A program made the translations under genes and the position numbers. This document shows positions 3,043 through 11,811 of a stretch of 13,384 nucleotides of DNA, piece by piece. How positions within the stretch are numbered: the first letter of the stretch is position 1; each line of letters begins with the position of its first letter. Location of the stretch: assembly GCA_002404115.1 (NCBI GenBank), contig DHJB01000079.1, forward strand, positions 14,747-28,130. Direction: 5' to 3'. The notes beneath the pieces are model-generated. The model did no database searches. It was not told the origin of the DNA and saw nothing but the letters and a program-made list of their open reading frames with translations. Origin of the DNA: Microbacteriaceae bacterium UBA4731. GTDB lineage: Bacteria > Actinomycetota > Actinomycetes > Actinomycetales > Microbacteriaceae.

Positions 3043-3124
3043 CCTTCGCCGACTTTGACACTTCCGGTCGAGATTGCCCCGCGTACAGGGCAATCTCGAC
3101 CGAAACGGACAAAGTCGGCGAAGG
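3043..3124. repeat. 82-bp near-perfect palindrome (candidate REP-type element)
   Basis: The outer arms CCTTCGCCGACTTTG (3043-3057) and CAAAGTCGGCGAAGG (3110-3124) are perfect 15-bp reverse complements. The inner arms GGTCGAGATTGCCC (3066-3079) and GGGCAATCTCGACC (3088-3101) are perfect over 14 bp. An 8-nt mismatched patch separates outer from inner arms on each side, and the loop is 8 nt (3080-3087). As RNA it would form a very stable hairpin 11 nt after the UPF0182 stop codon. It could insulate that transcript from the tRNA gene or protect its 3' end. No T-run follows, so it is not a classical intrinsic terminator. The arm length and bulged layout suggest a dispersed palindromic repeat. Confidence 0.85.
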
Positions 3125-3189: not shown

Positions 3190-3263
3190 CGCGGGGTGGA
3201 GCAGTTCGGTAGCTCGCTGGGCTCATAACCCAGAGGTCGTAGGTTCAAATCCTGCCCCCGCAA
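3190..3263 (+). tRNA. Initiator tRNA-fMet, anticodon CAT
   Basis: The cloverleaf folds fully. The acceptor arm is CGCGGGG (3190-3196) against CCCCGCA (3256-3262). The anticodon stem is CTGGG/CCCAG (3217-3221, 3229-3233) around loop CTCATAA with anticodon CAT at 3224-3226. The T arm is GTAGG-TTCAAAT-CCTGC (3239-3255). Two initiator hallmarks are present: the unpaired C1/A72 at the end of the acceptor stem and three consecutive G:C pairs at the base of the anticodon stem. The discriminator base is A3263. CCA is not encoded (ACA follows), so it must be added after transcription. A strong terminator follows directly, so the gene is probably a single-gene transcript. Confidence 0.97.
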
Positions 3264-9253: not shown

Positions 9254-10114
9254 TCAGCCCTCGGTCAGGACGACCACGTCGAGGCCGAGGTCGAGCGAGT
9301 GCACGCTGTGGGTGAGGGCTCCCACCGAGATCACGTCGACGCCGGTCTCGGCGATGGCGCGCACGGTGGTCAGCGAGACGCCGCCGCTCGCCTCGACGAT
9401 CGCGCGGCCGGCGACGAGGCGAACGCCTTCGCGGAGCTCGTCCGGCGTGAAGTTGTCGAGCATGATCGTGTCGATGCCGGCGGCGAGCACGGGCTCGATC
9501 TGGTCGATCCGGTCGACCTCGACCTCGAAATGCGTGGTGTGGGAGAGTCGCTCGCGCACCTCGCGCAGCGCCTCGGTCAGGCCGAGCCCGCTCGCGCTGA
9601 GCACGGCGAGGTGGTTGTCCTTGGCCATGACGGCGTCGGAGAGGCTGAACCGGTGGTTCTGGCCGCCGCCGTCGCGCACGGCCTGGCGCTCCAGGGCGCG
9701 CAGCCCCGGCGTGGTCTTGCGGGTGTCGACGATCCGGGCCCGCGTGCCGGCGATCTCGGTGACGTACCGGGCGGTCAGGGTGGCGATCCCGCTCATCCGC
9801 TGCACGAAATTGAGGCCGATGCGTTCGGCCTGCAGGATGCCGCGGGCGGGGCCGGACGCCTCGGCGAGCACCGTTCCCGGTTCGAAGTGGGTGCCGTCGG
9901 CGGCGAGCAGGTGCACGACGATGCGCGGGTCGGTGAGCCGGAACGCTGACTCGAAGACCGCGCTCCCGCTGAAGACGCCGGGCTCGCGGGCCACGAGCTG
10001 CGCGGTCGCGAGCGCGTCGGCGGGGATCAGCACCGCCGAGGTCAGGTCACCCCAGGGGGCGTCTTCGTCGAGGGCGGCCCGCACGACGGTGTCGATGGCG
10101 TGACTGGTCAGCAT
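9254..10114 (-). CDS. nadC: Quinolinate phosphoribosyltransferase (nicotinate-nucleotide pyrophosphorylase)
   Basis: This 286-residue enzyme converts quinolinate and PRPP to nicotinate mononucleotide, CO2 and pyrophosphate, the last step shared by the operon. The family motifs are intact: QRMSGIAT (105-112), DTRKTTPG (130-137), GGGQNHR (149-155), KDNH (165-168), FEVEV (196-200), MLDNF (218-222), EASGG (241-245) and SVGALTHS (263-270). The basic residues R106, R132, K133, H154, R155 and K165 are the expected quinolinate/PRPP contacts. Length is normal. The ATG start overlaps the end of nadB by 7 nt (ATGCTGA), a strong sign of translational coupling. Confidence 0.96.
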   Translation of the reverse strand: MLTSHAIDTVVRAALDEDAPWGDLTSAVLIPADALATAQLVAREPGVFSGSAVFESAFRLTDPRIVVHLLAADGTHFEPGTVLAEASGPARGILQAERIGLNFVQRMSGIATLTARYVTEIAGTRARIVDTRKTTPGLRALERQAVRDGGGQNHRFSLSDAVMAKDNHLAVLSASGLGLTEALREVRERLSHTTHFEVEVDRIDQIEPVLAAGIDTIMLDNFTPDELREGVRLVAGRAIVEASGGVSLTTVRAIAETGVDVISVGALTHSVHSLDLGLDVVVLTEG

Positions 10115-11811
10115 GCGATGGCCTCCTTGGCCTCGATTCGCTCGTCCGCGCGGGTCCAGACGAGCGGGTGGGCGAGTTCGGGACGGGCGACCGAGAAGTC
10201 GGCCCGGTGGTGCGCGCCGCGGGATTCTTCCCTCGCCAGGGCGGCTTCGACGGTGATTCGTGCGAGGTCGAGCAGGTTGGCGTCTTCATGGGACCTGACC
10301 GGGGCATCCGTGCCGGTGCCCGGCCGTGCCCAGCCGGCCAGGGTGACGGATGCCGCAGCGAGCGAGTCGCCGCTTCGCAGCACCCCCGCGGCCTCCCACA
10401 TCACCCCCTGCAGCTTCTCCCGCGAAAACTCGTCCCCGCCGTCGCCGTCGCCCGCTGCGTCCGCGGCGCCGGCCCAGTCGAATTCGACGGAGATTTTCGG
10501 GGACACGCCGTCGTGCGGGAGGGACACTGTGGCGTGTCGGGAAGAATCTCCGTCGAATTCGGCGGGGGTGCCGGTGGACGGGTCGGCGAGCGTGAGCGCG
10601 CGCACGGCACGGTCCGCGAACACGGCGGCCTCGAGCAGCGAGTTGGAGGCGAGCCGGTTGGCGCCGTGCGCGCCTGTGCGCGCGGCCTCGCCGACCGCAT
10701 ACAGGCCGGGGATCGTGCTGCGTCCCCACACATCGGTGAGGATGCCGCCCATCCAGTAGTGCGCGGCAGGGGCAACCGGGATCGACTCCACCGCCCAGTC
10801 GAGTCCGGCCGCGAGGCAGGCCGCCGTGATGGTCGGGAAGCGTCGTTGAAGCAGGTCGCGACCGAGCCCGGTCGCGTCGAGGCGCACCGGCTCGCCGCCC
10901 TGGGCCGCCATCTCGCGCGCGATGCCCCTGGCGACCACGTCGCGCGGGGCGAGCTCGGCGTCCGGGTGCAGCGCGAGCATGAAGCGTTCGCCCTTCGCGT
11001 TCCGCAGCACGGCGCCTTCGCCGCGCACCGCCTCTGAGACAAGCGGCGTACCGGGCACCGCGAGCGCGGTGGGGTGGAACTGGTAGAACTCCAGGTCGGC
11101 GACGGATGCCCCGGCCCGCCAGGCCGCGGCCACCCCGTCGCCCGTGGCGAGGTCGGGGTTCGTGGTGTGCCGGTAGAGCGACCCGGCGCCGCCGGTCGCG
11201 AGGATAACGGCGTCCGCGTCGATGTCCTGGAGGCCGAGACCGTCGGGCGCGTCCAGGCCGGCCCCACCCCCGAGCACGGTCGCCCCAGCGACGCGCCCGT
11301 CCCGCACAATCAGATCGGTGAGCATCGTGTGCTCCAGGATGCGCAGCTCGCCGCCGCGCGCGGAACCGCGCGCCCTGGCCTGCGCCGCCCGTGACCGCAC
11401 CGTTGCGACGAGGGCCTCCTCGATGACCGCCCCGGTGGCGTCGCCGCCGGCGTGCAGCACGCGCGAGCGCGAATGAGCCGCCTCGAGCCCGCGGGTGAGG
11501 CCGGAGTCGTCGCGGTCGAAGTCCACGCCGAACCGGATCAGGTCCCGCACGCGGGCCGGCCCCTCCGCGCACAGCACGTGCACGGCGGCCGGGTCGCAGA
11601 GCCCGGCGCCGGCCCGGAGCGTGTCCAGCATGTGGGTGTCCACAGAGTCGTCGGGGAAGAGGGCGGCGGCGATCCCGCCCTGGGCGTAGCGCGTGTTGCT
11701 CTCCGGCAGGGTGCCCTTGGTCACGAGGGTGACGCTGTGGCCGGCATCCGTCGCGCGCACCGCGGCGGTCAGCCCGGCCAGGCCGCTGCCGACGACGAGC
11801 ACCGAGGTCAT
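10108..11811 (-). CDS. nadB: L-aspartate oxidase with a palindrome-encoded insert
   Basis: This 567-residue flavoprotein oxidises L-aspartate to iminoaspartate. It has the FAD dinucleotide motif GSGLAG (8-13), SNTRYAQGGIAA (38-49), FYQFHPT with H246 (242-248), R290 in PRDVVARG, H351 in HYWMGG and R386 in GANRLASNSLLEA. These are the substrate-contacting residues of the family. A C-terminal helical domain starts near 467. It is longer than usual (about 530-540). The excess lies at about 418-445, between two EFD triplets, exactly where the DNA forms an 83-bp palindrome (10479-10561). An acidic Asp/Gly/Ala stretch (446-460) follows. The ATG lies 2 nt after the nadA stop. The reading frame stays open far upstream through nadA, but that extension is a high-GC artefact and not a fusion. 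Confidence 0.95.
   Translation of the reverse strand: MTSVLVVGSGLAGLTAAVRATDAGHSVTLVTKGTLPESNTRYAQGGIAAALFPDDSVDTHMLDTLRAGAGLCDPAAVHVLCAEGPARVRDLIRFGVDFDRDDSGLTRGLEAAHSRSRVLHAGGDATGAVIEEALVATVRSRAAQARARGSARGGELRILEHTMLTDLIVRDGRVAGATVLGGGAGLDAPDGLGLQDIDADAVILATGGAGSLYRHTTNPDLATGDGVAAAWRAGASVADLEFYQFHPTALAVPGTPLVSEAVRGEGAVLRNAKGERFMLALHPDAELAPRDVVARGIAREMAAQGGEPVRLDATGLGRDLLQRRFPTITAACLAAGLDWAVESIPVAPAAHYWMGGILTDVWGRSTIPGLYAVGEAARTGAHGANRLASNSLLEAAVFADRAVRALTLADPSTGTPAEFDGDSSRHATVSLPHDGVSPKISVEFDWAGAADAAGDGDGGDEFSREKLQGVMWEAAGVLRSGDSLAAASVTLAGWARPGTGTDAPVRSHEDANLLDLARITVEAALAREESRGAHHRADFSVARPELAHPLVWTRADERIEAKEAIAC
10479..10561. repeat. 83-bp imperfect palindrome inside nadB, in frame
   Basis: The outer arms CGAATTCGACGGAGATT (10479-10495) and AATCTCCGTCGAATTCG (10545-10561) are perfect 17-bp reverse complements. 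Two more pairs, one of them G:T, extend inward. The inner arms GACACGCC (10502-10509) and GGCGTGTC (10531-10538) match over 8 bp. A mismatched patch separates the arms, and the loop is 21 nt. On the minus strand the element reads through without a stop as nadB residues 418-445, starting and ending with EFD. Total length and bulged layout match the 82-bp palindrome at 3043-3124, although the sequences are not clearly homologous. An in-frame inserted palindromic element is the most economical explanation. Confidence 0.8.

Follow-up and report, generated by a model that had tools for sequence, protein, structure and literature searches.

A dispersed Microbacteriaceae repeat with inverted half-sites at a fixed distance and a ten-base-pair interior register, one copy of which lies in nadB

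The palindrome inside the nadB gene of Microbacteriaceae bacterium UBA4731 belongs, as a divergent member, to a repeat family dispersed in Microbacteriaceae, and this family is the real find. Its members carry inverted half-sites AATTCGACGGAGATT at a fixed distance, enclosing a nearly free interior in which A/T patches recur every 10.0 bp. The preservation of the ends and of the length, together with a free interior that keeps a ten-base A/T register, suggests DNA that is bent or wrapped by a putative protein. The whole explanation, a duplex-DNA site composed of half-sites and a phased A/T interior and wrapped or looped by such a protein, is given a probability of roughly 0.55. If it is correct, some bacteria retain around a hundred scattered sites of constant length whose interiors preserve the shape of the DNA and not its sequence. 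The protein-DNA complex would be a defined one, directly findable by pull-down, and the copies would be a natural set for telling sequence from shape in DNA recognition. No description of the element was found in titles and abstracts of the open-licence literature.

The copy in nadB

The features of the window, which is the whole stretch of 13,384 nucleotides that was analysed, are as follows.

10108..11811, minus strand: nadB (L-aspartate oxidase), 567 amino acids, with the element in frame between two domains
10479..10561, no strand: repeat copy, a palindrome with perfect 17-nt ends; the core GACGGAGATT...AATCTCCGTC is 69 bp, the family standard being 67
10481..10495, plus strand: half-site 1, conserved, AATTCGACGGAGATT (family profile and sequence)
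10545..10559, minus strand: half-site 2, conserved, AATTCGACGGAGATT inverted (family profile and sequence)
10496..10544, no strand: interior of 49 bp (standard 47), GC-rich and weakly phased, with the inverted 8-mers GACACGCC and GGCGTGTC
10502..10509, plus strand: inner arm, 8 nt, GACACGCC (sequence)
10531..10538, plus strand: inner arm, 8 nt, GGCGTGTC (sequence)

The original prediction described an 83-bp palindrome with perfect 17- and 8-bp arms that is translated in the frame of nadB. Both pairs of arms are indeed exact (17 nt at 10479-10495 and 10545-10561; 8 nt at 10502-10509 and 10531-10538), and the repeat search of the window returned an inverted repeat at 10473-10509 and 10531-10567 with 81% complementarity. 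The element begins with the third base of codon 417, ends with the first base of codon 445 and is read as about 27 residues of the linker between the FAD_binding_2 (4-392) and Succ_DH_flav_C (464-541) domains. The strong hairpin foreseen for this copy was recovered as well, with a predicted energy of -53 kcal/mol on the nadB-sense strand (z -9.0), which was equalled by none of 200 shuffles. The frames on either side of nadB are presumably nadC and nadA.

An Rfam search of the window returned a tRNA only. A stronger inverted repeat of 82 bp, with 37-nt arms that are 89% complementary, is located at 3043-3124, between the stop codon of the first long frame, which it closely follows, and the tRNA gene (3190-3263); the first 80 loci contain nothing convincingly related to it. 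Inverted repeats of 92-109 bp whose ends resemble (TGTGGCTA)ACTCAGGAGAT and whose interiors vary also occur at L161:7640, L168:9494, L156:8794, L175:10819 and L176:17887.

By its NadB the window belongs to Cryobacterium. The best match is C. tagatosivorans, with 75% in the best segment and 81% in further comparisons, and genome G426 is equally close. The translation of the element is recognisable by eye, at the same length, in the NadB of the window, G001, G426 and G428; this count covers 29 genomes parsed of 30 loci fetched (L271 was left out, and no locus was obtained from 27 of the 57 genomes). In an alignment of 23 NadB relatives the element is visible in C. tagatosivorans only. The clean gap expected in the relatives' NadB did not appear, because the length of the linker varies in all parsed Cryobacterium (45-74 residues; 69 in the window), which precludes a clean one-step gap in the alignment.

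Between the window and C. tagatosivorans the 28 codons of the element show 2 synonymous and 11 non-synonymous differences, and the peptide is therefore not conserved. The corresponding numbers are 117 and 59 for the 414 codons before the element and 33 and 34 for the 117 codons after it. The best 83-mer of the window has a self-complementarity of 0.70; those of the other three species score 0.63, 0.58 and 0.55 and still have stable predicted folds (-46.7 to -53.0 kcal/mol). The nadB copy has type I ends and an interior resembling that of the more homogeneous type II copies (GGAGATTTTCGCGACACGCCG...), and its phase score, at best 0.37, belongs to the lowest tenth of the family.

In an AlphaFold2 model of NadB, computed from a shallow alignment of 20 (mean confidence 76.2, pTM 0.82), residues 420-458 have a confidence below 50, which is in keeping with predicted disorder; other stretches of the model are also of low confidence. 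A second apparent repeat family, GGTCTCGACAGGCTCGACCA-like and in frame, is found in the NadB linker of other Cryobacterium (L003:7171-7329, L020:7159-7335, L250) and gives peptides such as VSTGSTTGG and LVEVVET. The presence of other repeat-like sequences in the same linker makes it seem tolerant of insertions. The nadB copy would thus be a captured family member, of 69 instead of 67 bp, which was retained in frame in a variable linker. Judged by the comparison of two species, in which there is no constraint at the protein level, the element probably contributes nothing to the NadB enzyme. The in-frame reading looks incidental and not the element's normal habit.

Architecture and divergence of the family

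The proposed search with the 83-bp sequence brought further copies to light: matches were found in 8 of 22 Cryobacterium genomes, three of which are rich, with at least 35, 28 and 25 matches. The exact pattern GACGGAGATT...AATCTCCGTC is present in 19 of 57 Cryobacterium genomes, at copy numbers of 107, 102, 97, 49, 41, 17, 13, 11 and fewer. It is absent from the other 38, and the element is therefore dispensable for the genus as a whole. Among 398 sampled Microbacteriaceae genomes the exact pattern occurs in 9. G082, which lies outside Cryobacterium, has 34 copies, and four further genomes beyond the 57 have 1-3 copies each. A related pattern was found in 3 of 396 sampled genomes of the order, two of the three being Cryobacterium. 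Species with at least 13 copies group together in the NadB tree (midpoint-rooted, no support values shown). The five genomes with the highest copy numbers (G003, G004, G007, G434, G419) are rather small, at 3.1-3.5 Mb, the range of the genus being 2.5-4.8 Mb.

The length of the element is nearly constant. When 5-75 bp were permitted between the two 10-mer arms, 139 distinct matches had cores of 67 bp (123 matches), 68 bp (11), 66 bp (3), 69 bp (the nadB copy) and 76 bp (L078, by its look a chance match); most loci had been fetched with patterns admitting 50-75 bp cores, so that the spacing test is fair only inside that range. In 758 kb of sequence, 148 of 155 exact arms are matched at the standard distance by an arm that is likewise exact, six have a partner that is altered as judged by eye, and one has none.

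Over 124 canonical copies the ends are nearly invariant, with a profile reading CCCGAACGAATTCGACGGAGATT, and there is little consensus in the interior (positions 15-55). This set is mostly from Cryobacterium with a few copies from elsewhere and includes orthologous copies, so that its members are not fully independent. Its profile has A/T-rich triplets at 20, 30, 40 and 50, separated by G/C-rich stretches. The period is 10.0 bp and the amplitude 0.353, compared with a maximum of 0.042 in 500 shuffles and 0.009 in the flanks. All 124 copies are phased in one sense (minimum score 0.15), and AAA or TTT occupies 177 of the 496 phased triplets. In G082, 33 of 34 copies peak at the same A/T coordinates as the main set, with a period of 10.0 and an amplitude of 0.44.

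The element could act as RNA, its long stem forming a hairpin that serves as a REP-like bidirectional terminator or stabilises mRNA 3' ends between convergent genes. The ends are able to pair, and the nadB copies of the window and of its three relatives fold stably. Covariation occurs at some positions of the ends (nine in the main set, z 2.4-6.4; 12-14 in G082, z 2.7-4.4). Pairing within the G082 interior slightly exceeds expectation, notably at positions 30 and 31 (z 2.5 and 2.7), so that a hairpin contribution may exist. The copies are also found at 3' ends and in convergent gaps, as described for REPs (partial text of PMC3733652). Against this, the interior of about 41 nt pairs with its mirror positions at the level of chance in the 124 copies (0.344, expected 0.370) and follows the 10-bp rule, so that a hairpin spanning the whole element, and with it the extension of the hairpin view to the whole family, is not borne out by the main set. 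At position -4 each side has G or C without regard to the other; the two sides carry opposite letters in 64 of 124 copies and do not form a Watson-Crick pair in 59%. The polarity of the element is unrelated to transcription (14 with and 13 against among the 27 scorable of 29 tandem copies), and an RNA hairpin provides no evident reason for an exact length of 67 bp. A function at the RNA level is considered quite unlikely.

Between species the interior diverges faster than four-fold degenerate sites while the ends hardly change. In 13 orthologous pairs, 8 of 364 end sites and 201 of 534 interior sites differ, compared with 286 of 2073 sites in the partly coding 130-bp flanks and, near 12 of the pairs, 1313 of 5607 four-fold sites. 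Seventeen pairs were examined; two of unequal length (a difference of 1 bp) and two that appear to combine different copies (L100/L191, L161/L111) were left out of the 13, and 12 were used for the four-fold sites and the gap analysis. Five of the 12 align better with balanced, apparently compensating gaps that restore 67 bp. The position-by-position count thus overstates the interior divergence somewhat, and the balanced gaps, if these alignments are right, are a sign that the length is kept.

A strict conservation of A/T versus G/C class between orthologues was not seen. The interior shows no enrichment of A-T and G-C swaps (0.36, compared with 0.37 in the flanks), although a strict constraint on shape might have led to one, which speaks against the preferred reading. 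A/T positions underwent 18 A-T swaps and 36 changes of class, the class being not visibly protected. This is not fully reconciled with the phasing; our guess is that selection acts on some looser property.

Genomic placement and the proposed protein-wrapped site

In 758 kb of G003 and G004, chosen around known copies and annotated with a home-made gene finder, 79 copies were placed. Seventy-four are intergenic, two lie at sequence edges and three overlap the 3' end of a gene. The intergenic copies comprise 40 convergent, 29 tandem and 5 divergent cases, whereas the background of gaps of at least 60 bp comprises 80, 203 and 105, respectively (convergent excess, p about 2e-10; divergent deficit, p about 2e-5). 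The ratio of 40 copies to 80 convergent gaps applies to the sampled regions, and because these were chosen around known copies the genome-wide share of occupied convergent gaps must be clearly lower. The original prediction had likened the palindrome to the Rickettsia RPEs, which enter protein genes. In the sampled sequence of the two copy-rich genomes none of the 79 copies lies inside a called gene, only the nadB copy was seen within one, and the nadB palindrome is not an actinobacterial RPE.

Copies of G003 with placeable orthologous gaps are present in 5 of 5 cases in G004, 1 of 8 in G002, 1 of 2 in G006 and 2 of 4 in G007; one of the G007 absences (L160) is apparently due to a query that had matched coding sequence by chance. 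Copies of G004 are present in 5 of 6 cases in G003 and 1 of 2 in G006. Two of the seven G003 copies absent in G002 share one gap. At one orthologous gap the element is present in five Cryobacterium species (L161, L097, L111, L115, L151); the genomes of two of them contain no more than 2 and 3 exact copies, respectively. The genes flanking this site are taken to be glyA and folD, and a second site, conserved in two genomes, adjoins what appears to be an aquaporin-like gene. A partner gene beside conserved copies was considered and rejected: there is no DNA-binding gene at either site.

Such a distribution could also stem from a MITE. The element would then be a non-autonomous transposon bounded by terminal inverted repeats and spread by a putative transposase, and its copy in nadB would be an in-frame insertion. 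The ends are inverted, the copies are scattered, their number is very different between related species, and a relative has element-free sites, as in the seven of eight cases in G002. The nearest copies are closer to each other than simulated independent ones (median of 13 compared with 17 differences in 41), so that some copies share descent. Random pairs of copies, however, differ in the interior like independent draws (0.63, expected 0.626). Eight absent sites were aligned, one of them on one side only; the gaps differ beyond the element, and a clean empty site with a target duplication was not seen. The transposase of RAYT type (Y1_Tnp, PF01797) was found in none of 26 genomes, while the same search was positive in 5 of 14 control genomes. 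The pairing of the exact arms at the standard distance also speaks against a MITE, and apart from the 1 of 155 arms that is unpaired the examined DNA gives no sign of insertion-sequence ends. A MITE is unlikely as the explanation, and it could be the origin of the element without being its present function.

A further alternative is that the DNA of the element is curved by itself and has no protein of its own, or that it is a site wrapped by gyrase in the manner of BIME-2. The phased AAA/TTT patches agree with this, as does the location of the copies at the 3' ends of genes, where positive supercoils gather. The gyrase motif of E. coli is likewise periodic, with a 10.75-bp GC period in two regions that flank a separate 36-bp centre, 130 bp in total (partial text of PMC6379681), whereas the element keeps 10.0 bp through its centre and measures about 85 bp. 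For bare curvature the conserved half-sites would be superfluous. This alternative is very unlikely in either form.

The preferred reading is that the element most likely acts as duplex DNA. A putative protein, perhaps a dimer or a small oligomer, would grip both half-sites simultaneously, and the A/T patches would turn the minor groove to a single face, whereby about 85 bp may bend or wrap round the protein. A role as an insulator, as a roadblock or in topology is suggested by the location at the 3' ends of genes, particularly in convergent gaps; this is the weakest step of the proposal. A more specific version is offered tentatively: the geometry might be nucleosome-like, the half-sites clamping approximately one superhelical turn on an undescribed architectural protein that in some Microbacteriaceae marks the junctions of convergent genes. 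The interior would carry little information besides its 10.0-bp A/T register. No protein that binds the element was found; PF01797 was the one protein family searched across genomes.

Comparison with known systems

REPs are short dispersed palindromic repeats present in many copies, which are intergenic, mostly convergent or tandem, and occasionally located in genes; they form stem-loops of 20-40 bp with short loops (partial text of PMC3733652). The element resembles the REPs and BIMEs of the GTAG and CGTC families in being a scattered palindromic repeat of mostly convergent or tandem gaps that is occasionally found within a gene. It differs in that its ends enclose a helically phased interior, which in the main set pairs no more than by chance. 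The end profile has no GTAG. The CGTC REP has an 8-9 bp stem and a 4-5 nt loop (Table 1 in the partial text of PMC3733652), whereas the ends of the element contain CGTC but enclose about 41 nt whose pairing does not exceed the chance level. A REP driven by RAYT was rejected, as PF01797 is missing from the 26 genomes.

The nadB copy is like an RPE in that a palindrome is translated in frame within a protein gene and adds residues to the product. RPEs interrupt many genes (partial text of PMC3733652), whereas in the family described here the nadB copy is the exception. Similarly to MITEs, the element has terminal inverted repeats, is dispersed and has no coding capacity of its own. MITE copies, however, usually share their interior, while that of the element is nearly free with length and phase kept, and no parent element was found in the DNA examined.

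The gyrase motif and BIME-2 share with the element a periodic A/T and G/C content that is suggestive of wrapped DNA, at a period of 10.75 compared with 10.0 bp and a length of 130 compared with about 85 bp. The gyrase motif is degenerate and without conserved specific ends, whereas the element has them.
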